From Halorubrum persicum (GTDB lineage: Archaea; Halobacteriota; Halobacteria; Halobacteriales; Haloferacaceae), in assembly GCF_002727125.1 (NCBI RefSeq), contig NZ_NHOA01000139.1:531-64530 (forward strand): a DNA stretch of 64,000 bases, given 5' to 3'. Of the stretch, positions 6,764-22,754 are shown one piece after another; the stretch's first letter is position 1, and each line of letters opens with the position of its first letter. The notes below the pieces were generated by a model that worked only from the letters and a program-made list of their open reading frames with translations, searched no databases and was not told the DNA's origin. A program made the translations under genes and the position numbers.

Positions 6764-8044
6764 ATGTCCCACGACGCGCGAGCCAGACTGAGCGACCTCC
6801 GCCGGGCGTTCCACCGCTCCCCGGAGCCCGGATGGCGCGAGTTTCGGACGACTGCCCGCGTCGTCGAGGAGCTCGAGCGTATCGGCGTCGACGAGATCGC
6901 GGTCGGTCGCGAGGCGCTCGCGACCGACGCGCGGATGGCCGTTCCCGACGGCGACGAGATCCAGCCGTGGATCGACCGGGCCCGCCGTGCCGGGGTCAGC
7001 GACGACCTCCTCGAGCGCACCGCGGGCGGTCACACCGGCGTCGTCGCGACGCTCTCGCAGGGCGACGGGCCGTGTATCGGGCTGCGCGTCGATCTCGACG
7101 GGATCTCGATCCGGGAGTCGGATGAGCCGGACCACCGACCGGCGGCGGAAGGGTTTCGGTCGGAACACGACGGCTACATGCACGCCTGCGGTCACGACGC
7201 GCACCTCGCGATCGCGCTCGGCACGCTGGAGGCCGTCAAAGAGAGCGCCTTCGAGGGGACGGTCAAGGTGTTCTTCCAGCCGGCCGAGGAGATCTCCGGC
7301 GGCGGCAAGGCGATGGCCGAGAGCGGCCACCTCGACGGCGTCGACTACCTGTTCGCGCTCCACGTCGGGCTCGGCCACCCCACCGGCGAGATCGTCGCCG
7401 GGGTCGAGAGCCCGCTGGCGATGGCGCACCTGACCGCCACCTTCGAAGGCGCGAGCGCACACGCCGGGAAGGCGCCGAACGAGGGGGCAAACGCCATGCA
7501 GGCCGCCGCGGTCGCGATCCAGAACGCGTACGGCATCGCCCGCCACCGCGACGGGGCGACGCGGGTGAACGTCGGTCGGATCGAGGGCGGCTCGGCGAGC
7601 AACGTCATCGCGGAAGAGGTGACGATCGAGGCCGAGGTCCGCGGCGAGACGACCGCGCTGATGACGTACGCGCGCACCGAGCTCGAGCGGGTGTTGTACG
7701 CCGCCGCCGAGCTCCACGACTGCGATGTCACCCCGCGCGTGATCAGCGAGTCGCCGTGCGTCGACAGCCACCCGGCGCTCAGAGAGCTCGTCGGGAACGT
7801 GGCGTGGGACGTCGACGGCGTCGAGCGCGTGATCCCGACCGAGGAGTTCGGCGTGAGCGAAGACGGCACGTATCTGATGCAGCAGGTGCAGGACGCCGGC
7901 GGGCTGGCCTCGTACGTCCTCGTCGGCACGGATCACCCGACGAGCCATCACACGCCCACCTTCGACGTCGACGAGGAGAGCCTCGAGATCGGCGTCACGC
8001 TGCTCTCCGACGCGTTCGTCGAGCTGTCCCGGCGGCGCCCCTGA
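6764..8044 (+). CDS. M20D amidohydrolase, AbgA-like (first copy)
   Basis: Zinc-dependent amidohydrolase of 426 residues in the M20 family. The metal-site motif HACGHDAH is at residues 140-147, the general-base region FQPAEE at 171-176, a further histidine in FALHVG at about 200, and SHHTPTF near the C-terminus. The N-terminal FHRSPEPGWREFRTTARVVEEL and the insert around residues 50-90 (SRM-like ARMAVPD, then an acidic helix) recall E. coli AbgA, the p-aminobenzoyl-glutamate hydrolase subunit, more than HipO-type hippuricases. A close paralogue lies at 13703-15025. In this neighbourhood an N-acyl-amino-acid deacylase is likely. I suggest deacetylation of N-acetyl-diaminobutyrate from ectoine, but that is inference; folate-type or indole-acyl amides remain possible. 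Confidence 0.9.
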   Translation: MSHDARARLSDLRRAFHRSPEPGWREFRTTARVVEELERIGVDEIAVGREALATDARMAVPDGDEIQPWIDRARRAGVSDDLLERTAGGHTGVVATLSQGDGPCIGLRVDLDGISIRESDEPDHRPAAEGFRSEHDGYMHACGHDAHLAIALGTLEAVKESAFEGTVKVFFQPAEEISGGGKAMAESGHLDGVDYLFALHVGLGHPTGEIVAGVESPLAMAHLTATFEGASAHAGKAPNEGANAMQAAAVAIQNAYGIARHRDGATRVNVGRIEGGSASNVIAEEVTIEAEVRGETTALMTYARTELERVLYAAAELHDCDVTPRVISESPCVDSHPALRELVGNVAWDVDGVERVIPTEEFGVSEDGTYLMQQVQDAGGLASYVLVGTDHPTSHHTPTFDVDEESLEIGVTLLSDAFVELSRRRP

Positions 8045-8136
8045 CGGGGACGCAGCGCGGTGACAGCCGGTTTCGACGCGGTGCGCTCGTTGGACCGATC
8101 AGTACTGTTAATCCGGTGGCACCCGGTGTATCGGCC

Positions 8137-8784
8137 ATGAGCCAGAACGACGTGCCGGAGTCGCTGGAGGCGGCCGCCGAGTCCGACCGGCCTCGCGGGA
8201 TCCTCACGCCCTCCGATCGCGACTTTCTGCTCGGACGCAAAACCGACTACACGGACCACTCCCGGAAGCAGAAGCGGAACCGGATCCGACGCCGCGTCCG
8301 GAACGCGATCCTCGATTTCAGCATCCTCTTTGAGTGTTTGGAGGAGCGCGACCGGAAGACGGTGTTCGACCCGAACGACGAGGACCGCGAGGCGTACACG
8401 CAGGGGATCACCGACATGCTCGCGTTCCTGCACCTCGGGACGATGGGGTACCACACGCCGTTCAAAGATATGCTCTCCGAGGGCGTCGGGAAGGCGGAAC
8501 AGCAGCTCGCCGGGTCGAACTACCGGATGGTCAACGTGGAGTTCAACGTCGAACCGGTCGGCCAGATCGACGTCGACGAGGTGGTCGCGAAGCTCGAAAA
8601 CGACGAGTTCGCGGAGCTCACCGACGAGGAGCTCCGCGCGTTCGTCCGTCTGCTGACCATGTCGGAGTCGTTCTCGCCGGAGGAGGCCGGCGAGGAGATC
8701 AAAGACCGCGTCGACGAGTTCGCCGAGAAGCTGACGGAGAGCGCCACCTCTCACGAGCGCACGCTCGAAGAGTTGACGAACTGA
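8137..8784 (+). CDS. Conserved haloarchaeal protein of unknown function
   Basis: Soluble protein of 215 residues. It opens with a short acidic tail and then RGILTPSDRDFLLGRKTDY, a basic stretch SRKQKRNRIRRRVRN (about 47-61) and DFSILFECLEERD. I recognise this opening from other uncharacterised haloarchaeal proteins but know no function. The C-terminal third is a highly charged helical region. The ATG at 8137 lies about 29 bases after GTTAAT, a plausible core promoter. It sits between two genes of the catabolic block but nothing ties it to that pathway. Its last bases are duplicated just downstream. Confidence 0.8.
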   Translation: MSQNDVPESLEAAAESDRPRGILTPSDRDFLLGRKTDYTDHSRKQKRNRIRRRVRNAILDFSILFECLEERDRKTVFDPNDEDREAYTQGITDMLAFLHLGTMGYHTPFKDMLSEGVGKAEQQLAGSNYRMVNVEFNVEPVGQIDVDEVVAKLENDEFAELTDEELRAFVRLLTMSESFSPEEAGEEIKDRVDEFAEKLTESATSHERTLEELTN

Positions 8785-8811: not shown

Positions 8812-9237
8812 TGCGAACTGATCGGCGGACCAGAGTTGGTGGTCCGGAGCGACGGAGAGAAACAGTAGGCGGTAACAGATATCGCTCACGCGCTGCTGCC
8901 CAGTGACCCGGGAGTCGCGGTGCGGCGGTCGATCGGTCTGGGCGGTGCCGTTCGATCTTCGATCGAATTTGAGTCCGATGCCGCGCTTTTTCGGATTGTT
9001 CCTCACGGGTTGTCCGCATATCGCGTCGATCGCTGTCGAGATCGCCGCTCGAACTGCTTGATTCGAATTGTGTTGAACGTAGATACGGAATACATAATTC
9101 GAATAGATGCCGCCGGTTTGAGAAACACTTATTGTGTACGATTTCAATGCATCCTGCATGCCAGCACGTGGCATGGTACTCAACCGGCGGAGGCAACGTG
9201 GACCAAGTAGTCATCGCCGTCGCGGGGGGACCTTCTG
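8785..9237. other. 453-base intergenic region before the BCCT gene
   Basis: No convincing gene is visible. The first 60 bases hold the 3'-end duplication and a hairpin. The middle is ordinary GC-rich sequence. From about 9055 composition becomes AT-rich (ATACGGAATACATAATTCG), and the likely BCCT promoter is CACTTATTG at about 9126-9134 with GTGTAC directly after it. That would leave a leader of roughly 80 bases before the ATG at 9238. Confidence 0.5.
9126..9139 (+). promoter_or_regulatory. Probable BCCT promoter with a GTGTAC half-site
   Basis: CTTATT is followed at once by GTGTAC (9134-9139). The GTGTAC matches half of the palindrome found upstream of the ectoine hydrolase, amidohydrolase and aminotransferase genes. 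It is only a half-site, so this is the weaker member of the set. Confidence 0.35.
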
Positions 9238-10932
9238 ATGAGTGGCTCGGAGAAGGGAATGGTCGAGGAGTTCCGCGACGAGATCGACCCGATCGTCTTC
9301 GCGTTCGGCGCGCTCATCACGCTGGGCGTCATCGTCGCGTTCTTCATCAGCCCGTCGGCCGTCGAGAGCGGCATCTCGTCGCTGAACGACCAGCTGCTCG
9401 GCGCATTCAACTGGGCGATGCTGTTGATCGTGTTCCTGATCGTGCTGTTCCTCCTCTTCCTGATCGTGGGGCCGTGGGGCGGTGTCAAGCTCGGCGACGA
9501 GCCACCGGAGTACAGCTTCCTCTCCTTCTTCGCGATGCTGTACTCCGCGGGCTTCGCGGCCGGCGTCGTGTTCTGGGGACCGACCGAGGCGCTGTTCTAC
9601 TACGACAGCCCCTCACCGCTGTTCAACGGCGTCGAGGGGGGGACGGCCGAGGCGATGACGATCGCCGTCCAGCAGACGCTGTTCCACTGGGCGCTGCCGC
9701 AGCTCGCCGTGTTCACCATCATGGGCATCGCGATCGGCTACTTCGCGTACAACTACGACAACGTGCCGCTCCGCGTCTCCTCGGCGCTCACGCCGATCCT
9801 CGGCGCCGACAACCTCGACGGCCCGGCCGCGAAGGTCGTCGACATCCTCGCCGTCTTCGCGACGATCGGCGGGGTCGCCACCTCGCTCGGCTTCATCGGG
9901 AGCCAGTTCGTCACCGGGCTCGACTACCAGTGGGGGATCAACATGGGCGATCTCGGTATTCTGCTCGTCGTCACCATGATGACGCTGCTGTTCACGACCT
10001 CGATGGTGCTCGGGGTCGACAAGGGGATCCGCCGGCTCTCGAACTTCAACATGATCCTCTTCGTCGTGCTGATGTTCGTGACGTTCATCGTGGGTCCGAC
10101 GCTGTTCCTCGTGCTGCTCGGCACGCAGGCGTTCGGCGGCATGGTCACGGACTTCGTCTCGATGAGCCTCTTTACCGGCGCCGGACCGATGGGTAACGGC
10201 AACATGGGCGCGACCGGGTGGATGAACGCGTGGACCGTCTTCTACTGGGCGTGGGCGCTCTCGTGGTCGCCGTTCGCGGGGCTGTTCATCGCGCGGATCT
10301 CCAAGGGGCGGACCGTCCGCGAGGTCGCGTTCACGGGGATCGTCGCGACCTCCGGCGCAACCATCCCGTGGTTCACCTTCGTCGGCGGCACCGCGGTGTG
10401 GGCGCAGCACAACGGCATCGCCGACTTCAGCGCGGTGATGTCCGGTGAGGCGGGGGCGGAGGTCTCCGGCTTCATCCTCTTCGAGGCGCTGAACTTCACG
10501 CTGAATCTCGGTGGGGCGTCGATGACGGTCCCGATCGGCTCCGCGCTGATCTACGCGTTCATGATCCTCGTGACGACGTTCTTCGTCACGTCGGCGGACT
10601 CCTCGACGCTGGCCGTCTCGATGATGACGACCGGTGGCAAGGCGAAACCGTCGAACATCAACCGCATCTTCTGGGGCGTCGTCCTCGGGATGACCGCGGC
10701 GATCCTGATGATCCTCGGCGGCACCGGCAGCGCGAACACGCTCCAGCAGGCGGCGATCATCACCGGGACGCCGTTCGCCTTCGTCTGCTTCCTCGCGATG
10801 CTGTCGCTGATCAGGGACTTCAGCAAGCATTACGACCAAGTGCTCCTGCAGGACGAGACGGTGCTGTGGGGCTCCAGCAGTGAGTCCGACCGGTCAAGTT
10901 CGATCGACTCGGCCGGCGCGGACGACGACTGA
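9238..10932 (+). CDS. BCCT family osmolyte transporter
   Basis: Sodium- or proton-coupled symporter of 564 residues for betaine, choline, carnitine or ectoine-type solutes, with about twelve membrane segments. The family's Trp-rich signature is complete: WTVFYWAWALSWSPFAGLF (near residues 328-346) followed by IARISKGRTVREV. The early motif FWGPTEALFYY and the later FVTSADSSTLAVSMM are also typical. The charged C-terminal tail is short. The ATG at 9238 starts before the first hydrophobic segment. It lies directly upstream of an aminotransferase gene and within reach of the ectoine hydrolase, so ectoine or betaine uptake for catabolism is a reasonable inference. BCCT specificity cannot be read from sequence alone. 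Confidence 0.93.
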   Translation: MSGSEKGMVEEFRDEIDPIVFAFGALITLGVIVAFFISPSAVESGISSLNDQLLGAFNWAMLLIVFLIVLFLLFLIVGPWGGVKLGDEPPEYSFLSFFAMLYSAGFAAGVVFWGPTEALFYYDSPSPLFNGVEGGTAEAMTIAVQQTLFHWALPQLAVFTIMGIAIGYFAYNYDNVPLRVSSALTPILGADNLDGPAAKVVDILAVFATIGGVATSLGFIGSQFVTGLDYQWGINMGDLGILLVVTMMTLLFTTSMVLGVDKGIRRLSNFNMILFVVLMFVTFIVGPTLFLVLLGTQAFGGMVTDFVSMSLFTGAGPMGNGNMGATGWMNAWTVFYWAWALSWSPFAGLFIARISKGRTVREVAFTGIVATSGATIPWFTFVGGTAVWAQHNGIADFSAVMSGEAGAEVSGFILFEALNFTLNLGGASMTVPIGSALIYAFMILVTTFFVTSADSSTLAVSMMTTGGKAKPSNINRIFWGVVLGMTAAILMILGGTGSANTLQQAAIITGTPFAFVCFLAMLSLIRDFSKHYDQVLLQDETVLWGSSSESDRSSSIDSAGADDD

Positions 10933-10958: not shown

Positions 10959-10993
10959 ATTTATAACAAGTTTTAATGTATAACGTATACATT
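10959..10993 (+). promoter_or_regulatory. TATA box and palindromic operator of the aminotransferase gene
   Basis: ATTTATAA at 10959-10966 is followed by an 8-base perfect inverted repeat, AATGTATA-acg-TATACATT, at 10975-10993. The palindrome covers the expected transcription start, 10-30 bases after the TATA box and just before the ATG at 11002, a position where a bound protein would block initiation. Its TGTATA halves resemble the TGTACA halves of the other operators in the block. Confidence 0.65.
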
Positions 10994-11001
10994 AACTGTG
11001 T

Positions 11002-12363
11002 ATGAATAGGGATACGGCGGAACCCGCTACGGGCGCGCTCCCCGGCCCGAACGCGCAGCGTTGGGTCGACTTCCACCAGTCGCACTCCGCGCCCAGCGAG
11101 TACTCGCACGAGTTCGTCTGGGACGTGACCCGCGAGGCCGACGGACCGTTCGTCACCGACGTCGACGGCAACGTCCTCCTCGATTTCACCTGCCACATCG
11201 GCGCGGCCCCGCTCGGCTACAACAGCGAGAAGGTGCTCTCGAAGCTCCGGGAGTTCGACCTCGTCGAACCGATGAAGATCGCCGGCCAGGACATGTACTT
11301 CGGGTCGGGGCCGACGCCCGAGGAGGCCGACTTCCCCGGGTCGAGTCATCTCATGGACCGACTGACCGACATCTCCAGTCACTACGGGATGGACACGGTG
11401 TTCCTCTCGAACTCCGGGGCCGAGGCGATGGAGAACGCCATGAAGATCACCCACGACCACCGCGCCCCCGCGAAGTACGGCGTGGCGTTCAGCGGGAGCT
11501 TCCACGGCCGCACGCTCGGGACCCTCTCGCTGACGAAGTCGAAGGACGTGTACACTCGTCAGTACCCCGAGATCAGCGGCATCGAGACGGTGCCGTTCTG
11601 CGCCGACCGCGGCTGTGACCCCGCGAGCTGCGACTGCGGCTTCTTCGCCGGCGGCGGCTCGCGGCTCCGGAACATGCTCGCGCCCGAGGGCGGCCACGTC
11701 GACCCCGCGGAGGTCGCCTTCCTGACGCTCGAGCCGATCCAGGGCGTCGGCGGCTACCGCTTCCCCAGCGAGGCGTTCATGGACGAGGTCGCGGCCGTCA
11801 CCGAGGAGTACGACATCCCGCTCGTCGTCGACGAGATCCAGTCGGGCGTCGGCCGGACGGGCGAGATGTGGGCGGCCGACCACTACGCCATCGAGCCGGA
11901 CGTGATCGCGAGCGCGAAGGCGCTGCGCGTCGGGGCGACGATCTCCCGGTCGGAGGTGTTCCCGTCGGAGAAGAACCGCCTCGGCTCGACGTTCGGCGGC
12001 GGCGACATCCTCGGCTCGATGATGGGGACGTTCACGCTGGAGGCGATTCGGGAACACGACCTCTTGGCCAACGCGACGCGACGCGGGCGTCAGGCGAGAG
12101 AGCTCCTCAGCGACGACGCGCCGGAGACGGTCGTGGACGTTCGCGGGAAGGGGTTGATGCTCGCGGTGGAGTTCGACACCGCCGAGCGTCGCTCCGCCGT
12201 CGTCGAGGCCTGCCTCGACCGCGGGCTGTTGACGCTGGGCTGCGGCAAAAAGACGATCCGGCTGCTCCCGCCGCTCGACGCGACCGAGCGCGAGATCGCG
12301 CTCGGGACCGGGATCTTCCTCGACGCGATCGAGGCCGTCAGCGCGAGCGCGCCCGCGAACTGA
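11002..12363 (+). CDS. Class III aminotransferase with a cysteine cluster
   Basis: PLP-dependent aminotransferase of 453 residues, fold type I. The phosphate and cofactor region is SNSGAEAMENAMK (136-148), the substrate loop SFHGRTLGTLSL (166-177), the PLP-ring aspartate D277 in VVDEIQSGVGRTGE and the Schiff-base lysine K306 in SAKALRVG. It belongs with 4-aminobutyrate, ornithine and diaminobutyrate transaminases. An unusual feature is four cysteines at residues 200, 205, 210 and 212 (C-x4-C-x4-C-x-C), a spacing that suggests a bound metal. Regulation by the palindrome directly upstream is likely. It may serve the amine-removal steps of the pathway; the exact substrate is not known. Confidence 0.9.
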   Translation: MNRDTAEPATGALPGPNAQRWVDFHQSHSAPSEYSHEFVWDVTREADGPFVTDVDGNVLLDFTCHIGAAPLGYNSEKVLSKLREFDLVEPMKIAGQDMYFGSGPTPEEADFPGSSHLMDRLTDISSHYGMDTVFLSNSGAEAMENAMKITHDHRAPAKYGVAFSGSFHGRTLGTLSLTKSKDVYTRQYPEISGIETVPFCADRGCDPASCDCGFFAGGGSRLRNMLAPEGGHVDPAEVAFLTLEPIQGVGGYRFPSEAFMDEVAAVTEEYDIPLVVDEIQSGVGRTGEMWAADHYAIEPDVIASAKALRVGATISRSEVFPSEKNRLGSTFGGGDILGSMMGTFTLEAIREHDLLANATRRGRQARELLSDDAPETVVDVRGKGLMLAVEFDTAERRSAVVEACLDRGLLTLGCGKKTIRLLPPLDATEREIALGTGIFLDAIEAVSASAPAN

Positions 12364-12401: not shown

Positions 12402-13706
12402 TCACCCCTCGTCGTCGACCGAGCGCGGGACGGTCGGCTGCTCGACGACCGAGCGCTCGACGACCGAGACCCCGTCGATCTCGGAGACCGCGGCCAACAC
12501 CGCATCGAGGTGGTCGGCCCCGCGCCCCTCGATCCCGATCGTCACGGGGGTGCGGTTCGGATGGTCGGTCGCGGCGCGGCTCGCGCGCTCTAAGGTGTCG
12601 AGCTCGGCGCCCTCGGCCGTCACCGTCTCGACCACGTCGCCCACCTGCCTCGGCCACGCCGCGAGCGCGAGCCGCGCCTCGGCGTACCGACCCAGTTCGA
12701 CGAGGCCGGTGCGCGCGAGCGCGGCGTGGTCGGTGAGGTTCACGTTCCCGCCCGAGACGACGACGGCGGGATTGGCGTCGGCGAGGTCCAACTCCGCCGA
12801 GAGCGCGGCGGCGAGCGGGGCGGCGCCGGCGCCCTCCGCGATCAGCTTCGCTCGCTCGGCGAGGAGCGCCACGGCGGCGGCGATCTCGCGGTCGGAGACG
12901 GTGACGACCTCGTCGATGACCTCGCGGGCGATCGCGAAGGTGGTCTCCAGCATGCGCGTGTCGGCGATCCCCTCGGCGACGGTGTCGACGTCCGAGAGCG
13001 GGCGGATCTCGCCGGCCTCCAGCGACGGCTTCGCGTGTGCCGCGCCCTCCGGCTGGACGCCGACGACGCGAACGTCCCGGTCCGCGGCCGTCACGGCCGT
13101 CCCGATCCCGGAGATGAGCCCCCCGCCGCCGACGGAGACGAGCACGGTGTCCATCGCGGGATACTGCGCCAGCAGTTCGAGCCCGACCGTTCCCTGTCCG
13201 GCCACGACCGCCTCGTCGTCGAAGGGGTGGACGAACGTCTCACCGGTCTCCGCGGCGCGCTCCACGGCGAACTCGTACGAGCGCTCGTAGATGTCGCCCT
13301 CCACGAGCACGGTCGCGCCGTACCCCCTGGTCGCCGCGATCTTCGCCGCCGGCGTCACCTCGGGCACGACGATCGTCGTGTCGATCCCGAGGAGATCGCC
13401 GGCGAGCGCCACGCCCTGCGCGTGGTTGCCCGCGCTGGCGGCGATCACGCCGGTCTCGCGCTCGGCCGCGGTCAGCTGTGCCATCGCGTTGTACGCGCCG
13501 CGGATCTTGAACGATCCGGTCCGCTGGAGCGTCTCGAGCTTGAGCCCCAGCGACGCGGCCCCGCTCATGTCGGCGAAGGTGCGCGAGGTGTCGAGCGGCG
13601 TCCGGTGCGCGACGTCGGCGAGCCGGTCGCGCGCGGCCTCGATGTCGCCGAGCGTGACGGTCGGCGACGCGTCCCCGCCGCTCCCGGCAGCGGAGCCGTC
13701 GGTCAT
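12402..13706 (-). CDS. Threonine dehydratase-like PLP enzyme with C-terminal ACT-like domain (EutB-like)
   Basis: Fold type II PLP enzyme of 434 residues. The cofactor lysine is in TGSFKIRGAYNA, the asparagine loop is ASAGNHAQGVA and the glycine loop VSVGGGGLISG. The last 90 or so residues (PVTIGIEGRGADHLDAVLAAV) form an ACT-like regulatory domain, so a plain threonine ammonia-lyase producing 2-oxobutyrate is the default reading. However, the stop codon of the preceding amidohydrolase overlaps this start codon by ATGA, and bacterial ectoine clusters carry a threonine-dehydratase relative, EutB, acting in hydroxyectoine use. EutB proteins as I recall them are shorter and lack the ACT part. The start at 13706 is fixed by the overlap; the much longer open frame upstream is antisense noise. 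Confidence 0.9.
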   Translation of the reverse strand: MTDGSAAGSGGDASPTVTLGDIEAARDRLADVAHRTPLDTSRTFADMSGAASLGLKLETLQRTGSFKIRGAYNAMAQLTAAERETGVIAASAGNHAQGVALAGDLLGIDTTIVVPEVTPAAKIAATRGYGATVLVEGDIYERSYEFAVERAAETGETFVHPFDDEAVVAGQGTVGLELLAQYPAMDTVLVSVGGGGLISGIGTAVTAADRDVRVVGVQPEGAAHAKPSLEAGEIRPLSDVDTVAEGIADTRMLETTFAIAREVIDEVVTVSDREIAAAVALLAERAKLIAEGAGAAPLAAALSAELDLADANPAVVVSGGNVNLTDHAALARTGLVELGRYAEARLALAAWPRQVGDVVETVTAEGAELDTLERASRAATDHPNRTPVTIGIEGRGADHLDAVLAAVSEIDGVSVVERSVVEQPTVPRSVDDEG

Positions 13707-15025
13707 TCGCCGTTCTGGCGGACGGTCGCCGGGTCGTCGACCTGCGGGACGGGGTGGCGCCGTTCGAGGTCGCGGACCGCGCCGACGAGCACGTCCACGC
13801 CGTGCCGGAGGCTCCGCTCGTCCACGTCGAAGGTGGGCGTGTGGTGGCTCGTCGGGTGGGCCGTCCCGACGATGAGGTACGTCGCCAGCCCGCCCTCCTC
13901 CTGGACGCGCTCCATGAGGAACGTCGCGTCCTCGCTCGCGCCGAAGTCCGCCGCCGGGAGCACGGTGTCGATCCCGTCGACGCCCTCGGCCACTCCGGCG
14001 ACCAGCGCCTGCAGCTCCGGGTCGCTGTCCGCGCGCGGCGACTTGCTGACCACGTCGACGGTCGCCCGGCAGCCGTGCATCGTCGCGGCGGCGCGGACGG
14101 TGCGCTCGAACCGGCGCTTCATGAACTCCATCAGCGCGGTCGTCTCGCCGCGCGCCTCGGCCTCCATCTGCGCGCGCTCGGCGATGACGTTGCTCGCGGT
14201 GCCCGCCTCGGCCGTCCCGATGTTCACCCGCGTCATCCCGTCGGCGTGGCGGGGGATCCCGTACGCGTTCACGATCGCCGTCCCCATCGCGTGCATCGCG
14301 TTGTCCCCCTCGTTGGGGGCCTTCCCGGCGTGGGCCGACGTGCCCTCGATCGTCGCGTCGAGGTGCGCCATCGCCAGCGGCTTCTCGATGCCGGCGACCA
14401 CCTCGCCGGTCGGGTGGTCGAGGCCGACGTGGACCGCGAGCAGGTAGTCGAGGTCGTCCGCGAACCGGCTCTCGGCCATCGGGCGACCGCCGCCGCCGGT
14501 CTCCTCGGCCGGCTGGAAGAACACGACCAAGCGCCCGGCGAAGTCGCTCTCGGCGATCGCTTCGAGGGCCGCGAGCCCCCACGTGATGTGGGCGTCGTGG
14601 CCGCAGGCGTGCATCGTCCCGTCGATTTCCGAGCGGAACCCCTCGTCGACGGGGCCGTGGTCGGGGTCGGTCGACTCCTCGATGAACAGCCCGTCGATGT
14701 CGACGCGCAGCCCGATCGCGGGTCCGTCGCCGCGGTCGAGCACGGCGACGGCGCCGGTGTTCCCGCCGGCCATGCGTTCGAGTAGCTCGTCGTCGACGCC
14801 GCGGTCGCGGGCGCGCTCGACCCACGGGCCCAGGTCCGCCTCCGGAACGGCCATGCGGTCGGCCGGGTCGTACGCGTCCGGCCCGATCGCGAGCTCGTCG
14901 ACGCCGATCGAGCGGATCTCTTCGACGAGCGTCGCCGTCGTGAGGAACTCGCGCCACGCCGGCTCCGGATGCCGGTGGAACCGTCTGCGGACGCTGGCGA
15001 GCCGATCCCGTATTGGTTCGTTCAT
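13703..15025 (-). CDS. M20D amidohydrolase, AbgA-like (second copy)
   Basis: Paralogue of the protein at 6764, 440 residues. The metal-site motif HACGHDAH is at residues 139-146, followed by FFQPAEETGGGG, LLAVHVGLDHPTGEV and the C-terminal SHHTPTF. All expected zinc ligands and the catalytic glutamate appear present. It is the first gene of a two-gene operon with the dehydratase (ATGA overlap) and is transcribed divergently from a hydroxyacid dehydrogenase, across an intergenic region carrying two nested GTGTAC palindromes. In E. coli AbgA and AbgB form a heterodimer; here both copies look AbgA-like and might pair or act on different acyl groups. Deacetylation of an ectoine-derived intermediate is inference. 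Confidence 0.9.
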   Translation of the reverse strand: MNEPIRDRLASVRRRFHRHPEPAWREFLTTATLVEEIRSIGVDELAIGPDAYDPADRMAVPEADLGPWVERARDRGVDDELLERMAGGNTGAVAVLDRGDGPAIGLRVDIDGLFIEESTDPDHGPVDEGFRSEIDGTMHACGHDAHITWGLAALEAIAESDFAGRLVVFFQPAEETGGGGRPMAESRFADDLDYLLAVHVGLDHPTGEVVAGIEKPLAMAHLDATIEGTSAHAGKAPNEGDNAMHAMGTAIVNAYGIPRHADGMTRVNIGTAEAGTASNVIAERAQMEAEARGETTALMEFMKRRFERTVRAAATMHGCRATVDVVSKSPRADSDPELQALVAGVAEGVDGIDTVLPAADFGASEDATFLMERVQEEGGLATYLIVGTAHPTSHHTPTFDVDERSLRHGVDVLVGAVRDLERRHPVPQVDDPATVRQNGE

Positions 15026-15051
15026 GCGTGTCACGATCTCGCTCAACCGCC

Positions 15052-15087
15052 TTAACTGTACACAATTGTCGTGTACACGAAGTACAC
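15052..15087. promoter_or_regulatory. Divergent promoter region with nested GTGTAC palindromes
   Basis: A perfect 7-base inverted repeat TGTACAC-(aattgtc)-GTGTACA lies at 15057-15077. A second, GTGTAC-(acgaa)-GTACAC, at 15071-15087 shares its right half. For the minus-strand amidohydrolase, a GTTAAG-like core element sits at about 15051-15056, some 28 bases before its start at 15025, so the first palindrome overlaps or abuts the upstream promoter element. Confidence 0.65.
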
Positions 15088-15150
15088 AAAAGGCTAAGAG
15101 CCATCCTCGTAATGATCCGGCAACGCGTCGTCCCGACGCGCACACAGCTC

Positions 15151-16137
15151 ATGAGCGCACAACAGACCGCAGACCCCGATATCGTCGTGTTGCGGGAGGG
15201 AACGGAAGGATTACCGATGTCGTCGTACGCGGAGCGCCTCCGCGAGCGTCTCCCAGACCAGACGGTCGCGCTCGCGCGGACGCCGGCCGAGGAGCGCGAT
15301 CTCGTGCCGAACGCCCGCGTGGTAACTGGGATCACGATCGATCCAGACCCCCTCGAGCGCGCCGAGCGACTGGAGCTGTTCGCGTGTACCTTCGCCGGCA
15401 CCGACCACGTGCCGACCGAGGCGCTCCGGGAGCACGGCGTCGCCGTGACGAACGCGGGCGGGATCCACGCGCCGGGCATCGCCGAGCAGACGATCGCCAA
15501 CATGCTCGTCTTCGCGCGCAACCTCCACGAGGGGTGGCGCCGGAAGCGGAACGGAGAGTGGCGCCACTTCGGGTCGCACGAGTTCACCGACAGCACCGTC
15601 ACCGTCGTGGGGCTCGGATCGATCGGACAGGCGGTCGTCCAGCGGCTCGCCGGGTTCGAGGTGGAGACGATCGGGATCCGCTACACCCCGGAGAAGGGCG
15701 GCCCCACCGACGAGGTGCTCGGCTTCGACGACGAGGACGTCCACGAGGCGTTCGCCCGGAGCGACTACGTCGTGCTCGCGTGCCCCCTCAACGACCTGAC
15801 TCGCGGCCTGATCGGCGAGGCGGAGCTGGCGACGCTCCCCCCGGACGCGGTCGTCGTGAACGCGGCCCGCGGCGGGCTCGTCGACACCGACGCGCTCGTC
15901 TCCGCCCTCCAGACCGAGGGGATCCGCGGCGCCGCCCTCGACGTCACCGACCCCGAGCCGCTCCCGTCGGACCACGTGCTCTGGGAGCTGGAGAACTGCC
16001 TCATCACGCCGCACACCGGCGGCCACACCCCCAAACACTGGGACCGGCTGGCCGACATCGTCGCCGACAACGTCGCGGCGCTCGACGCGGGCGAAGAGTT
16101 GGAGAACGCGGTCGTCACGCCGGACGCGGACGGCTGA
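15151..16137 (+). CDS. D-isomer-specific 2-hydroxyacid dehydrogenase
   Basis: NAD(P)-dependent dehydrogenase of 328 residues that interconverts 2-oxo acids and D-2-hydroxy acids. The nucleotide-binding motif is GLGSIGQAVVQRL, the substrate arginine lies in NAARGGLVDTDAL, the glutamate in TDPEPLPSDH and the catalytic histidine in ITPHTGGHTPKHW. The N-terminal catalytic domain includes TNAGGIHAPGIAEQ. The ATG at 15151 is preferred; an in-frame ATG at 15112 would add 13 basic residues. It faces the amidohydrolase across the operator region, so it is probably co-regulated. Its substrate in the pathway is unknown; phosphoglycerate dehydrogenase is less likely because no regulatory domain is present. 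Confidence 0.88.
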   Translation: MSAQQTADPDIVVLREGTEGLPMSSYAERLRERLPDQTVALARTPAEERDLVPNARVVTGITIDPDPLERAERLELFACTFAGTDHVPTEALREHGVAVTNAGGIHAPGIAEQTIANMLVFARNLHEGWRRKRNGEWRHFGSHEFTDSTVTVVGLGSIGQAVVQRLAGFEVETIGIRYTPEKGGPTDEVLGFDDEDVHEAFARSDYVVLACPLNDLTRGLIGEAELATLPPDAVVVNAARGGLVDTDALVSALQTEGIRGAALDVTDPEPLPSDHVLWELENCLITPHTGGHTPKHWDRLADIVADNVAALDAGEELENAVVTPDADG

Positions 16138-16192: not shown

Positions 16193-17476
16193 CTACGGCC
16201 AGAGCCCGCGCGCGCCCTTCGCCTCCGCGATCCGAGACAGCGCGACGACGTAGGCGGCGTCGCGCCACGGCAGGTCCCGCTCGTCGACGACGGCGCGCAC
16301 GTCGCTCCACGCCGACAGCATCTGTTCTTCCAGCTCCTCGTTGACGCGCTCCAACGACCACGTCCGCCGGTTGATGTCCTGGAGCCACTCGAAGTACGAG
16401 ACGGTGACGCCGCCGGCGTTCGCGAGGATGTCCGGGATCACCGCCACGCCGTTCCCCTCGAGGATCTCGTCCGCGGCGAACGTCGTCGGGCCGTTCGCGC
16501 CCTCGACGACGACGTCCGCGGCGACCGCGTCGGCGTTGCTCGCGGTGATCACGTTGCCGACGGCCGCGGGGATCAGCACGTCCACGTCGAGTTCCAGGAC
16601 CGCGTCGTTCGACAGCGTCTGCGGCGCCTCGTGGGAGAGCACCGCCTCGGGCTCCTCCTCGTGGGTGGGGACCGCGTGCGTGTCGAGGCCGTCGGGGGCG
16701 TAGATCGCCCCGTTCACGTCGCTGACGGCGACGACGGTCGTGCCCCAGTCGTCGAGCAGCCGGGCCGCGTTGGCGCCGACGGACCCGAACCCCTGGACCG
16801 CGACGGTCGTCTCCGCGAGGTCGCGGCCGTAGTAGTCGACGGCCTCGCGCGCGGCGATGGCCGTCGACCGCCCCGGCGCCGCCTCGCGGCCGTACGACCC
16901 GCCGATGACCGGCGGCTTCCCGGTGACGACGCCGGGGATCGTCTCGCCCTGCTGCATCGAGTAGGCGTCCATGAACCACGCCATCGTCTGGGCGTCCGTC
17001 CCCATGTCCGGCGCGGGCACGTCCTTCGTCGGCCCGACGACGTCGCGGATCTCCTCCGCGAAGCGCCGGGTGAGGCGCTCGCGCTCGTCGTCGGTCAGCG
17101 ACTTGGGGTCGACGGCGATCCCGCCCTTGCCGCCGCCGAAGGGAAGGTCCATCACGGCGCACTTCCAGGTCATCCACATCGAGAGGCCGGTACACTCGGC
17201 GGCGGTCACCTCCGGGTGGTACCGGAGTCCGCCCTTGTACGGGCCCCGAACGTCGTCGTGCTGGGCGCGGTAGCCGGTGAACACCTCGACGGTCCCGTCA
17301 TCGCGTTCGAGGGGCACGGAGACCTGTTGGACCCGCGTCGGGTGTTTCAGGCGCTCGACGATGGCGGGGTCGACGTCGGTGTTGGTCGCCGCGCGTTCGA
17401 GCTGTTTGCGCGCGGTCGCGAGCGTCGATTCGGGCTCCGTCTCGGCTGCGTCGTCTGTGGTGGGTGTCGTGCTCAT
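16193..17476 (-). CDS. gdhB: Glutamate dehydrogenase
   Basis: Enzyme of 427 residues converting glutamate to 2-oxoglutarate and ammonia or the reverse. The substrate region is [11 protein letters not shown], the catalytic lysine region [19 protein letters not shown], then [18 protein letters not shown] and the cofactor-binding fold [17 protein letters not shown]. Length and motifs match the hexameric haloarchaeal enzymes. It follows the ectoine hydrolase gene on the same strand with an 81-base gap. In context it could regenerate 2-oxoglutarate for the two aminotransferases and release the nitrogen of the degraded amine. Coenzyme preference cannot be read with confidence. Confidence 0.95.
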
Positions 17477-17557: not shown

Positions 17558-18739
17558 TCAGGTCGTGAACAGTTCGCGGGGGAAGTCGGCCAGCGTCTCC
17601 GCGCCGGTCGAGGTGACGCGGAACGTCTCGCTGATCTCCATCCCCACGTCGGAGGTCCAGATCCCGGGGATCATGTGGAACGTCATGTTCTCTTCGAGCA
17701 CGGTCTCGTCGCCGGGGCGGATGCTCGCGGTGTGCTCGCCCCAGTCCGGGGGGTAGCCGAGCCCCATCGAGTAGCCGATGCGGTCCTCCTTCTCGATCCC
17801 GTACCGCTCGATGGTGGTGCGCCACGCCTTCTCGACGGTCTCGCAGGTGACGCCGGGCTCCGCGGCGTCCAGCGCCGCCTCGATCCCCTCGACGACGATG
17901 TCGGCGGTCTCCTGCAGTTCGGCGGGAGGGTCCCCGACGAAGGTCGTCCGGGCCAGCGGCGAGTGGTAGCGGTGGCGACAGCCGGAGAGCTCGATGATGA
18001 CGGGGTCGCCGTCCTCGTAGCGTCGGTCGGTCCACGTGAGGTGCGGGGTTCCGGTGTGATCGCCCGACGGCATCAGCGGGACGATCGCCGGGTAGTCGCC
18101 GCCGTACGCATCGGTCCCGTCGATCAGCTGCTGATAGACGGCGGAGGCGACCTCGTACTCCGGGACGCCTTCTCCGACCGCGTCGAGGCCCGCCTGCATC
18201 GCGTTCTCGGAGATCCGCGCGGCCTGCCGCATGTACTCCAGCTCCTGGTCGGACTTCTTGATCCGGATCCAGCCGACGAGCAGCGTCGCGTCCTCGAACG
18301 CGGCGTCCGGGAGGTTCTGTTGGAGCCGCGTGTACGACTTCGCGGTGAAGTAGGCGGCGTCCATCTCCAGCCCGACGCGTCCGTCCGCGACGCCCAGCTC
18401 TTCGAGCACGCCGGCGACGTAGTCCATCGGATGGAGGTCGCGGGGCGACTGGACGTGGTCGTCGCTGTACGCGCGGATGCTCTCCTCGGCGAGGTGCGTC
18501 GTCGCCCGCGCGCCGTCGCCGTCCATGTCGCGGCCGATCCAGATCGGCTCGTCGCGGTCGGGCGTGACCACGACCGCCTGATGGACGTAGAACGACCAGC
18601 CGTCGTAGCCGGTCAGATAGTTCATGTTCGCCGGATCGCTGACCACGATCGCGTCGAGGTCCCGCTCGCGCAACCGTTCTTTCGTCCGCGCCACTCGGCG
18701 CTCGTACTCGGCCTCGTCGAAGATGTGTTCCCGTGGCAT
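17558..18739 (-). CDS. doeA: Ectoine hydrolase DoeA/EutD (M24 family, metal-site residues lost)
   Basis: Protein of 393 residues in the creatinase / Xaa-Pro peptidase fold. It closely follows the ectoine hydrolase pattern as I remember it from Halomonas DoeA: DPANMNYLTGYDGWSFYVHQ (about 37-56), GGDYPAIVPLMPSG, PHLTWTDRRY, YGIEKEDRIGYSMGLGYPPD plus WGE, then RPGDETVLEENMTFH. The metal ligands of true aminopeptidase P are replaced: YHSPLART stands where Y-x-S-D-x-T-R-T is expected, and YPPDWGE where the GHG-type histidine belongs. DoeA opens the ring of ectoine (and hydroxyectoine) to N-acetyl-diaminobutyrate. The ATG at 18739 fits the family start. The upstream region holds two GTGTA(C/T)A elements shared with other genes of the block. 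A different cyclic amidine substrate cannot be excluded. Confidence 0.93.
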   Translation of the reverse strand: MPREHIFDEAEYERRVARTKERLRERDLDAIVVSDPANMNYLTGYDGWSFYVHQAVVVTPDRDEPIWIGRDMDGDGARATTHLAEESIRAYSDDHVQSPRDLHPMDYVAGVLEELGVADGRVGLEMDAAYFTAKSYTRLQQNLPDAAFEDATLLVGWIRIKKSDQELEYMRQAARISENAMQAGLDAVGEGVPEYEVASAVYQQLIDGTDAYGGDYPAIVPLMPSGDHTGTPHLTWTDRRYEDGDPVIIELSGCRHRYHSPLARTTFVGDPPAELQETADIVVEGIEAALDAAEPGVTCETVEKAWRTTIERYGIEKEDRIGYSMGLGYPPDWGEHTASIRPGDETVLEENMTFHMIPGIWTSDVGMEISETFRVTSTGAETLADFPRELFTT

Positions 18740-18776: not shown

Positions 18777-18820
18777 TGTATAAATTTATCGTGTACAATA
18801 AAAACGGATACTGTGTACAC
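18777..18820. promoter_or_regulatory. Divergent ectoine hydrolase / oxidoreductase promoter with GTGTACAC sites
   Basis: The region between the hydrolase and oxidoreductase genes contains TGTATA at 18777-18782, TGTACA at 18792-18797 and the perfect palindrome GTGTACAC at 18813-18820. An AT-rich TATAAATTTAT (18779-18788) between the first two elements could be the minus-strand TATA box of the hydrolase gene. The spacing of the first two half-sites, 15 bases start to start, is close to the 14-base spacing of the TGTACA halves at 15057. Confidence 0.6.
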
Positions 18821-18967: not shown

Positions 18968-20635
18968 ATGCTACACAGTATCGGACCGCTGCTGTCGATC
19001 GACGTTGGCGAGCAGACGACCGCAGAGACCGATATCACGGGGGTTCAGGAGCGCTACATCGGCGGGCGCGGCGTGGGGACGCGACTCGCTCACGAGCGGA
19101 TCCCGTTCGACGCGGATCCGCTCGGCCCGGAGAACCGCGCCGTGTTCACCACCGGGCCGATGCAGGCGTCACAGATGAGCTTCACGGGCCGGACGAACTG
19201 CACCGCGCTCTCGCCGCTGACCGACGGGTTGCTGTCGTCGAACGCGGGCGGGTTCGTGTCGCGACACCTCGCGGCGACGGGGTACGGGGCGATCGAACTG
19301 GCCGGCGCCAGCGACGAACTGGTCATCGTACACGTGCGCGACGACGGCGTCGAGTTCGAGGCCGTGCCGGAGCTCGCCGGAGCGACGGTCCCGGAGACGA
19401 CCGGCTACCTGGAGGCGGAGCACGACATCTCCAGCGACCGGACGGCGGTGATCGGACCCGCCGGCGAGAACGAAGTCCGGTTCGCGTCGGTCATGACGAC
19501 CGAGGAGCGCGCGTTCGGTCGCGGTGGGCTCGGCGCGGTCCTCGGCTCGAAGAACGTGAAGGGGATCACGTTCGGCGGCGACTCGGCGCCCGAGGTCTCG
19601 ATCGACGCGACCGCGACCGATATCCACCGGGAGGCCGCCACCGAGGACCACATCATGAAAGAGCAGGGGACGGTGGCGGTGATGGACCTCGCCAACGAGA
19701 TGGACGGGCTGCCGTCGTACTACTTCTCCGAGCGCTCCTTCGAGGGGGTCGAGGGGATCAACGGCGCCGCCGTCGCCGAGAAGAAGTATAAGAAGGGGAC
19801 GTGCTCGTCGTGTGCGTTCGCCTGCAAGCTCCCGACCCGCGACGAGGCGCGCGGCGTCGAGACCGAGGGCCCCGAGTTCGAGGTGGCGATGGCGTTCGGC
19901 TCGAACTCGGGGATCGACGACATCGTCGACGTGATGAAGTCGAACCAGCTCTGCGACGAGTACGGGCTCGACGCCATCTCCGCGGGCAACACGATCGCCG
20001 CGTACCTCGCCGCCGAAGACGAGTTCGGCAACCGCGAGCTCGTCTGGGACCTCGTCGAGAAGATCGCCGAGCGCGACGGGGTTGGCGACCGGCTCGCGGA
20101 GGGGATCGGCCGGATCCACGAGGAGCTCGGCGTGGGGAACTGGTCGGTGAAGAACATGGACTTCGCGGCCCACGAGGGACGGCTGCTCCACGGGCAGGCG
20201 CTCTCGTACGCGGTCGCGAACCGCGGCGCCGACCACATGTACGCGACGTTCTACTCGGTGGAGTACCCCTTAGTCGAGGAGGAGGACGCGATGGAGCCCG
20301 CGGGATTCGGGGGGAAGGCCGAGCGGCTCGTGCAGCGCGAGAACCTGATGGCGCTCAACGACAGCGGCATCGTCTGTAAGTTCTCTCGGGACTTCATGAC
20401 GCCGGAGCGCTACGAGCTGCTCTTCGGCGCCGACTTCGAGGAGCTGCTCGCGGCGGGCGCCCGGACCGTCACGCTGGAGCGCCACTTCAACAACCGGCGC
20501 GGTATCGACGGCGACGACGACCGGCTCCCGTACGCGGACGAGCTCCCCGGACTCGACGACGCCATCGACGCGTACTACGATCTCCGCGGCTGGAACGACG
20601 ACGGGACGGTGCCCGACGCGGCGCTGCCGGCGTAG
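18968..20635 (+). CDS. Aldehyde:ferredoxin oxidoreductase family protein (tungstopterin enzyme)
   Basis: Protein of 555 residues in the AOR family, which oxidises aldehydes to acids with ferredoxin as acceptor, using a tungsten-bispterin and a [4Fe-4S] cluster. The cluster ligands are visible: C279-x2-C282-x3-C286 (CSSCAFACK) and C470 in DSGIVCKF. The pterin region GRGGLGAVLGSKNVKGI (about 184-200) and the N-terminal YIGGRGVGTRL fit. It is somewhat shorter than the roughly 600-residue classical enzymes. The start at 18968 gives the family's N-terminus; the longer open frame upstream is antisense to the hydrolase gene. Divergent transcription from the ectoine hydrolase suggests a joint role, perhaps oxidation of aspartate semialdehyde, which is inference. 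Confidence 0.9.
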   Translation: MLHSIGPLLSIDVGEQTTAETDITGVQERYIGGRGVGTRLAHERIPFDADPLGPENRAVFTTGPMQASQMSFTGRTNCTALSPLTDGLLSSNAGGFVSRHLAATGYGAIELAGASDELVIVHVRDDGVEFEAVPELAGATVPETTGYLEAEHDISSDRTAVIGPAGENEVRFASVMTTEERAFGRGGLGAVLGSKNVKGITFGGDSAPEVSIDATATDIHREAATEDHIMKEQGTVAVMDLANEMDGLPSYYFSERSFEGVEGINGAAVAEKKYKKGTCSSCAFACKLPTRDEARGVETEGPEFEVAMAFGSNSGIDDIVDVMKSNQLCDEYGLDAISAGNTIAAYLAAEDEFGNRELVWDLVEKIAERDGVGDRLAEGIGRIHEELGVGNWSVKNMDFAAHEGRLLHGQALSYAVANRGADHMYATFYSVEYPLVEEEDAMEPAGFGGKAERLVQRENLMALNDSGIVCKFSRDFMTPERYELLFGADFEELLAAGARTVTLERHFNNRRGIDGDDDRLPYADELPGLDDAIDAYYDLRGWNDDGTVPDAALPA

Positions 20636-20994: not shown

Positions 20995-22356
20995 CTACGG
21001 TGCGGTCGCCGCGATCGCGTCCGCGATGACCTCGGTGCCGACCTCGGCCTGTCGCTGTGTCAGGACGAGCGGCGGGAGTAACCGCATGACGTTGCCGTAC
21101 TGGCCCGCGGTCCAGACTAAGACGCCGTGCTCGTAGCAGTACTCTTGGATCGCATCGACGCGATCGCCGTCCGGATCGCCGTTCGCGTCGACGAACTCGG
21201 CGCCGACGAACAACCCTTTCCCGCGGACCTGTCCCAGCCCCGGATCGCCCTCGCCCGCGTCGCGGAGACGGTCGCGGATCCACGCGCCGACCTCCGTCGC
21301 GTGGTCGAGCAGGTCGTGAGACTGGATGTACTCGATCGCGCGCAGGCCGCCGACCATGGCGGGGACGTGTCCTCGGTAGGTGCCCGCGTGATCGCCCGAT
21401 CCCCACGTGTCGAGGTCCTCGTGGTACATGGTTCCGGACAGCGGCTGGCCGTTCCCGCCGAGCGCCTTCGCGGTCGTCATCACGTCCGGCGTCACGTCGT
21501 AATGCTCGGACGCCCACCACTCGCCGGTGCGACCCATCCCGACCTGGATCTCGTCGAACACCAGCGGGAGGTCGTTCTCGTCGGCGATCTCACGCAGCCC
21601 CGAGAGGAACCCTTCGGGCGGGACGACGACGCCCCCCTCGCCCTGGATGGGCTCGACGAAGATGCCCGCCGGGTCCGTGAGGCCGCCGTACGGCTCCTCG
21701 ACGATCGCTCTGACCTCTTCGAGCGCGCGGTCGACCGACTCCTCGGGGCTCCGCCCCTCGCGGAACGGGTACGGGAACGGCGCGTGCACCACGTCCGGCA
21801 GCAGCGGCGCGTACGGCTTCTTGAACTTCTTGTTGGACGTGATGCTCATCGCGCCGGCCGTCGCCCCGTGGTAGGAGTTCCGGAACGCGAGGAGCCCGTT
21901 CCCGCCCGTGTTGTACTTCGCGAGCTTGATCGACGCCTCGACGGCGTCGCTGCCGGTGGGGCCGCCGAAGACGAATCGGCTGTTGCCGGCGAGGCTCCCG
22001 GGCGCGATCTCGTCGAGCTTGTCGATGAGGTCGAGGCGCGGTTCCGTCGGGAAGTCGACGGTGTGCGTGAGCTTGTCGATCTGCGCGTGGACCCCCTCGT
22101 TGACGTAGGGGTTCGCGTGGCCGACGTTGTACACGCCGATGCCGGCGAAGAAGTCGAGGAACACGTTGCCGTCCGCGTCCTTCAGGGTCGCGCCCTTCCC
22201 CTCCTCGAACGCGAGCGGGATGTCGTTCGGGTAGGCGACCGCGCTGCTGTCGATCGCCTCCTGCCTGTCGAGGAGGCGCCGAGAGTTCGGACCGGGGACT
22301 TGGTCAACGCTCGGTTCCTCGGCGAAGTGCAAGTCGTGGATCGGCGGTCCCGCCAT
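20995..22356 (-). CDS. Class III aminotransferase, diaminobutyrate-aminotransferase-like (DoeD candidate)
   Basis: PLP enzyme of 453 residues. GGPTGSDAVEASIKLA (131-146) is the type of phosphate-loop signature seen in diaminobutyrate-2-oxoglutarate aminotransferases (EctB/Dat/DoeD) rather than in GABA or ornithine enzymes. RNSYHGATAGAMSIT (159-173), D268 in VFDEIQVGMGRTGEW and the Schiff-base lysine K297 in TTAKALGGNGQPLSG are intact. In the ectoine route DoeD converts diaminobutyrate to aspartate semialdehyde, and the neighbouring ectoine hydrolase would supply the precursor. As the same family makes diaminobutyrate in ectoine synthesis, direction is judged by context: no ectA, ectC or ectD is visible here. 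A GTGTATAC element lies 57 bases upstream of the start. Confidence 0.9.
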   Translation of the reverse strand: MAGPPIHDLHFAEEPSVDQVPGPNSRRLLDRQEAIDSSAVAYPNDIPLAFEEGKGATLKDADGNVFLDFFAGIGVYNVGHANPYVNEGVHAQIDKLTHTVDFPTEPRLDLIDKLDEIAPGSLAGNSRFVFGGPTGSDAVEASIKLAKYNTGGNGLLAFRNSYHGATAGAMSITSNKKFKKPYAPLLPDVVHAPFPYPFREGRSPEESVDRALEEVRAIVEEPYGGLTDPAGIFVEPIQGEGGVVVPPEGFLSGLREIADENDLPLVFDEIQVGMGRTGEWWASEHYDVTPDVMTTAKALGGNGQPLSGTMYHEDLDTWGSGDHAGTYRGHVPAMVGGLRAIEYIQSHDLLDHATEVGAWIRDRLRDAGEGDPGLGQVRGKGLFVGAEFVDANGDPDGDRVDAIQEYCYEHGVLVWTAGQYGNVMRLLPPLVLTQRQAEVGTEVIADAIAATAP

Positions 22357-22384: not shown

Positions 22385-22420
22385 TGGTTGGTGCAACCAG
22401 CAATCACTGACAGTGTATAC
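22385..22420 (-). promoter_or_regulatory. Upstream region of the DoeD-like gene with GTGTATAC and two inverted repeats
   Basis: GTGTATAC at 22413-22420 is the palindromic motif shared by the block. It overlaps CACTG-a-CAGTG at 22405-22415, and a separate TGGTTG-gtg-CAACCA lies at 22385-22399, nearer the start codon at 22356. I cannot place a convincing TATA box, so the promoter itself is uncertain. Confidence 0.5.
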
Positions 22421-22549
22421 AGAATTCGTTTTCGATCGCGCTCCACCGGGGCGGGCGTCTCTCTCGATGGGGGCGTGACGACGGGGCGTACGCCGCGGCT
22501 CACGGATTCTTCGCGCAGACATGCCTCTCACAGTCGTTCGGGACAGTAG

Positions 22550-22576
22550 GCGCGGGACCAAATTCGAACCGGAGGA
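22550..22576 (-). repeat. Partial duplicate of the tRNA-Leu 3' end (att-like relic)
   Basis: The 27 bases here differ at only three positions from 22671-22697, the acceptor and T-arm half of the adjacent tRNA-Leu. Direct copies of a tRNA 3' end are the usual mark left by integrases that use the tRNA as attachment site. The copies are only about 120 bases apart and no integrase is present, so any element has been lost, or the copy arose by local duplication. Confidence 0.6.
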
Positions 22577-22669: not shown

Positions 22670-22754
22670 TGCGCGGGACCGGATTCGAACCGGCGGACCC
22701 CTACGGGATAGCGTCCTAAGCGCTACGCCTTTGGCCTGGCTCGGCAACCCGCGC
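22670..22754 (-). tRNA. tRNA-Leu (anticodon UAG)
   Basis: The minus strand folds as a tRNA of 85 nucleotides. The acceptor stem is GCGCGGG with CCCGCGC and discriminator A, the anticodon stem TAGCG/CGCTA encloses the loop CTTAGGA (anticodon TAG), a long variable arm typical of leucine follows, and the T-arm is CCGGTTCGAATCCGG. No CCA is encoded. The anticodon reads CUA and possibly other CUN codons. Confidence 0.95.

Follow-up and report, generated by a model that had tools for sequence, protein, structure and literature searches.

Gene cluster and its surroundings

The window, i.e. the whole 64,000-nucleotide stretch of Halorubrum persicum DNA that was analysed, carries an ectoine cluster with the gene order branched-chain-type ABC transporter, glyoxalase-like protein, DoeBa, orf8119, BCCT transporter, AT1, IlvA/EutB-like lyase, DoeBb, D-2-hydroxyacid dehydrogenase, GdhB, DoeA, AOR, AT2 and tRNA-Leu (Table 1). 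The gene of interest, encoding a protein of the aldehyde:ferredoxin oxidoreductase family (AOR), is divergent from that of the DoeA-like ectoine hydrolase, with 231 bp between them. DoeA is 48% identical to bacterial DoeA and, among solved structures, matches ectoine hydrolase 6twk with 384 bits, the runner-up being a prolidase with 111 bits; its NCBIfam TIGR02993 score of 463 bits lies below the equivalog cut-off of 613. Both M20 amidohydrolases and both class-III aminotransferases of the cluster are likewise under their specific equivalog cut-offs, and in similarity to Burkholderia DoeD AT2 (149 bits) exceeds AT1 (74 bits). Since DoeA is nearest to the solved ectoine hydrolase and AT2 is the nearer to DoeD, the AOR is flanked by the pathway's first enzyme on one side and by the leading candidate for the aldehyde-forming aminotransferase on the other. 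The arrangement of AOR and AT2 has a parallel in Burkholderia, where ssd (DoeC) lies next to an aminotransferase gene.

Table 1. Coordinates of the cluster genes and operator motifs in the window.
Feature	Position	Strand	Basis
DoeBa, second M20 deacetylase (DoeB2-like)	6764..8044	+	
Operator motif upstream of BCCT	9123..9139	+	
BCCT transporter, probable uptake of ectoines	9238..10932	+	
Operator motif at AT1 start, overlapping the first ATG by 2 bases	10987..11003	+	
AT1, second class-III aminotransferase	11002..12363	+	
PLP ammonia-lyase (IlvA/EutB-like)	12402..13610	-	
DoeBb, M20 deacetylase (DoeB2-like)	13703..15028	-	
Operator motif between DoeBb and D-2-hydroxyacid dehydrogenase	15058..15074	-	
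D-2-hydroxyacid dehydrogenase	15133..16137	+	
Glutamate dehydrogenase GdhB	16193..17476	-	above curated cut-off
DoeA-like ectoine hydrolase	17558..18736 (upper end approximate)	-	bacterial DoeA, 6twk, TIGR02993
Operator motif AAACGGATACTGTGTAC between doeA and aor, -165 from AOR ATG	18802..18818	+	
AOR-family gene (tungsten-type aldehyde:ferredoxin oxidoreductase), 555 aa	18968..20635	+	ORF, Pfam, 1aor alignment
AT2, class-III aminotransferase, best local DoeD/DABA-aminotransferase candidate	20995..22356	-	Burkholderia DoeD similarity
Operator motif upstream of AT2	22415..22431	-	

Several other features of the cluster were recorded. The product of orf8119 (8119-8784, + strand) is a conserved protein of about 220 aa with no Pfam match, present in most of the haloarchaeal ectoine clusters seen. 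The IlvA/EutB-like lyase and the D-2-hydroxyacid dehydrogenase recur in many clusters and may form a hydroxyectoine branch that runs via 3-hydroxyaspartate. A RidA-family protein adjoins AT2 in many haloarchaeal ectoine clusters (L025, L163, L217, L245, L268 and others); in this window none was seen next to AT2. At the right border of the cluster the 3' end of the tRNA-Leu gene is repeated as a 27-nt, 89% copy 121 bp from the gene (22550-22576 / 22671-22697), a possible integration scar.

The AOR-family protein

An AOR-family gene divergent from the ectoine hydrolase gene, with intact iron-sulfur ligands and pterin region, had been described in the initial annotation, and this description holds: the reading frame has no internal stop over its 555 codons, DoeA lies on the opposite strand, and the ligands C279, C282, C286 and C470 are invariant across 18 haloarchaeal homologues. 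Equally invariant are R75, N92, E305 and H423, which in the alignment to Pyrococcus furiosus AOR (1aor) correspond to R76, N93, E313 and H448, as well as D330, D335 and D465, the aspartates of the two pterin motifs. Cysteines stand at positions 78, 279, 282, 286, 329 and 470. The protein scores 208 bits with AFOR_N (cut-off 29.8) and 262 bits with AFOR_C (cut-off 27), and these are its sole domain matches, the ALDH superfamily domain PF00171 not being among them. Changes relative to orthologues are most frequent at codon position 3 (e.g. 19/15/99 for the three positions), which indicates purifying selection on the gene.

The closest solved structures are all tungsten AORs, namely 1aor (248 bits), 9mqx, 9g7j and 9q1t. 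With the P. furiosus enzyme, a member of the WOR/AOR family, the window AOR shares both Pfam domains, the 4Fe-4S ligands, the catalytic Glu and His and the pterin-contact residues; it differs in length (555 against 605 aa), in its second pterin motif (DSGIVC instead of DSAGLC) and in being a haloarchaeal protein within an ectoine regulon. Haloferax volcanii WOR83 (9q1t), one of the clade-83 WORs, is like the window AOR a WOR-family protein of an aerobic halophile, but it scores lower than 1aor (200 bits). A separate AOR encoded elsewhere in the genome (C15) is divided from the window AOR by a very long branch. An AlphaFold2 model from a shallow alignment reached a mean pLDDT of 54.5 and is confident in the N-terminal domain only. 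The genome also encodes a WtpA-like binding protein (119 bits, below the cut-off) and, judged by sequence reading, a MoeA-like protein, both of which could serve the tungsten cofactor and are taken as supportive only.

Operator motif

That AOR shares an operator region with the ectoine hydrolase had also been proposed, and the conserved 17-mer between the two genes supports this. The intergenic element was conserved in all 11 of the Halorubrum and Haloparvum loci compared. A matrix built from the DoeA sites of other species, with the window left out of training, placed the BCCT, AT1, DoeBb/D-2-hydroxyacid dehydrogenase, DoeA/AOR and AT2 sites among the six best in the 64 kb. In the whole genome (3.58 Mb) the consensus AHACNNHWWYTGTRTAY is matched exactly at five places, every one of them in the ectoine cluster and two of them flanking AOR; as this consensus was written to fit the five sites, the informative part is that none occurs elsewhere in the genome. 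A simple GTGTACAC motif, enriched in comparison with shuffles but scattered through the window, was discarded in favor of the specific 17-mer.

When the window sites alone were used to train the matrix, an operator site of at least 15 bits was found within 320 bp upstream of 21 of the 22 ectoine-linked AORs and of 2 of the 62 unlinked ones; among random 320-mers five of 480 reach 15 bits and none of 480 reaches 18. In six relatives (L032, L033, L038, L177, L256 and L270, belonging to two species of Halogranum, to Halorussus and to G083, G266 and G272) the site is placed at exactly -51 from the AOR ATG. The window site is immediately next to the DoeA promoter, whereas 165 bp separate it from the start of AOR, a position that counts against the proposed role, and therefore direct control of AOR is here likely, not certain. 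In L005, in the intergenic stretch upstream of 10001, a deletion of about 100 bp places the operator at -69 of the AOR start, which offers a natural test of operator control over AOR.

Distribution and linkage in haloarchaea

Of the 170 genomes of the family, 57 have a DoeA homologue and 46 a close AOR (73% or more); both are present in 35 genomes, in 32 of which the two genes are within 20 kb (Fisher P ~2e-12, not corrected for phylogeny). Across the order, 78 deduplicated ectoine clusters that bear AT2 were surveyed. Thirty of these clusters have AOR at a distance of 5 kb or less from AT2, and seven have an SSADH-like ALDH there; the two were together in none of the 78, a mutual exclusion which is modest (no-overlap P ~0.03, not corrected for phylogeny). 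The remaining 41 clusters have neither of them within 5 kb, which counts against a role of AOR. Other ALDH types lie near three of the AOR clusters, and two more clusters (L242 and L278) have an SSADH-like ALDH within about 7 kb. ALDH clusters G039, G040 and G042 belong to the same genus as AOR cluster G041. The ALDH of the L278 cluster bears AAACGGATACTGTGTAC, the same 17-mer as the DoeA/AOR site of the window, and operators are also situated upstream of RidA-ALDH units in L163 and L276. Six Halorubrum genomes have another AOR paralogue (identity about 61%), which stands beside an AT2-DoeBa-orf8119 cassette. Also counted against a role of AOR are two Halorubrum species (L004 and L008) in which a 92% AOR has no ectoine genes in the fetched flanks, and the ectoine cluster of G106, which is devoid of AOR.

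Evolution of the AOR subfamily

On a tree of 96 AOR rows the ectoine label requires 10 changes, and well-supported branches force at least six of these; linkage to ectoine genes was therefore gained or lost repeatedly. A single recruitment of AOR that stayed unaltered afterwards is rejected, as the ectoine-linked AORs do not form a single clade. The AORs interleaved with them adjoin class-III aminotransferases in polyamine-type settings, at L205 (with agmatinase and PotD-like genes), L026 and L031, suggesting that AOR-based oxidation of aminoaldehydes may also take place at the L205 and L026 loci. Members of this AOR subfamily were noted close to agmatinase, PotA/PotD-like and similar polyamine-type genes at L205 (8724-16343), L026 and L194-L196. 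The repeated label changes and the polyamine-type settings fit a subfamily that may have been recruited again and again for the oxidation of amino-aldehydes.

Proposed role and its alternatives

We propose that a single-subunit tungsten-type aldehyde oxidoreductase was recruited into a haloarchaeal ectoine-catabolic regulon. DoeA would open the ectoine ring to give N-acetyl-diaminobutyrate, an M20 deacetylase would convert this to diaminobutyrate, AT2 would transaminate diaminobutyrate to aspartate 4-semialdehyde, and AOR would oxidise the semialdehyde to aspartate with transfer of electrons to ferredoxin, in place of the NAD(P)-dependent DoeC of bacteria and some other haloarchaea. In bacterial ectoine catabolism aspartate semialdehyde is oxidised by the dehydrogenase DoeC/Ssd (PMC5924519). 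The window AOR resembles DoeC in the proposed reaction and in its pathway position beside an aminotransferase, but DoeC is an ALDH (PF00171) and AOR belongs to the unrelated AFOR family, and a different electron acceptor is expected. The best reading is a non-orthologous replacement, an enzyme that would do the work of DoeC but falls outside the DoeC family. Such a role is biochemically reasonable, as BmWOR of Brevibacillus, an oxygen-resistant WOR of clade 83 from an aerobe, has a documented ferredoxin-linked activity (PMC9424855).

Judged from the sequences, AOR is probably the enzyme that oxidises the aldehyde when ectoine is broken down, at the place where relatives have an NAD(P)-type ALDH. 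The more specific claim, that AOR replaces a bacterial-type DoeC in the ectoine regulon and oxidises aspartate 4-semialdehyde with ferredoxin, we regard as likely. It is built upon the intact enzyme, its linkage, the motif-based co-regulation and the swap with ALDH; substrate, metal, electron acceptor and direction of the reaction are what we infer, with the tungsten, ferredoxin and aspartate-semialdehyde steps drawn from what is known of the family. The initial annotation had already put forward that AOR oxidises the pathway aldehyde, and this idea keeps the support of regulon membership, repeated linkage to DoeD-like aminotransferases and substitution by SSADH-like ALDH. What it loses is the argument from absence. 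The initial annotation had stated that no DoeC-like dehydrogenase is visible, which is correct for the contig of the window (C17), where there are no Aldedh matches, and incorrect for the genome. Seven ALDHs are encoded there, one of them, itself without the operator, orthologous to ALDHs of ectoine clusters elsewhere, so the absence argument fails genome-wide and the notion of a genome without ALDH is rejected.

This unlinked SSADH-like ALDH (G000:C31) leads to the strongest of the other explanations, according to which it performs the step with NAD(P) and AOR is a redundant or condition-specific backup, used for example at low oxygen or when tungsten is available. The enzyme is 55% identical to the ALDH type of the G039 and G040 ectoine clusters, its orthologues (68-69%) of the other type are located in ectoine clusters L245, L249 and L268, and by NCBIfam it is nearest to NADP-dependent succinic semialdehyde dehydrogenase. 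Its promoter, however, is devoid of the operator motif, all five exact genome-wide matches being in the ectoine cluster, and its neighbors are apparent formate dehydrogenase genes (named by sequence inspection only). We consider this explanation rather unlikely.

Membership in the regulon could also be explained by action on another aldehyde, e.g. 3-hydroxyaspartate semialdehyde derived from hydroxyectoine, in which case the IlvA-like lyase would act on 3-hydroxyaspartate. The cluster does have two deacetylases and two aminotransferases, its PLP ammonia-lyase scores 285 bits to threo-3-hydroxyaspartate ammonia-lyase, and RidA adjoins AT2 in relatives; but the occurrence of IlvA is not matched by that of AOR (in L150 there is IlvA and no AOR, in L010 and L011 AOR and no detected IlvA), and the chemistry is speculative. 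We consider this proposal improbable. Slightly less probable still is that AOR is a general aldehyde-detoxifying or polyamine-type enzyme which happens to lie beside the cluster and has no role in the pathway. Homologues of the subfamily are indeed widespread, being present in 142 of the 170 family genomes (E <= 1e-150), and most of them lie in varied surroundings away from ectoine clusters; against this reading stand a linkage gained or lost repeatedly, the operator sites in AOR promoters and the exchange with ALDH. AOR as the replacement of DoeC stays the preferred reading. Its widest form, a haloarchaeal ferredoxin-linked tungsten route for ectoine with AOR in the place of DoeC, a regulon with its own operator and an AOR subfamily that repeatedly partners class-III aminotransferases of ectoine and polyamine settings, we put at about even.

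Significance

A review from 2018 described ectoine consumers as confined to Proteobacteria (PMC5924519), against which stand the doeA homologues found here in a single haloarchaeal family, where 57 of 170 genomes have one; no report of a haloarchaeal ectoine hydrolase was found in the open-access papers searched. In a classification from 2026 an enzyme with a defined role is present in only five of 92 clades of tungsten oxidoreductases (PMC13328260). If the pathway were assigned in Haloferax species, which are genetically tractable, the substrate of one haloarchaeal WOR would be defined, and the idea that aerobic archaea obtain reduced ferredoxin by oxidising amino-aldehydes would be put to the test.
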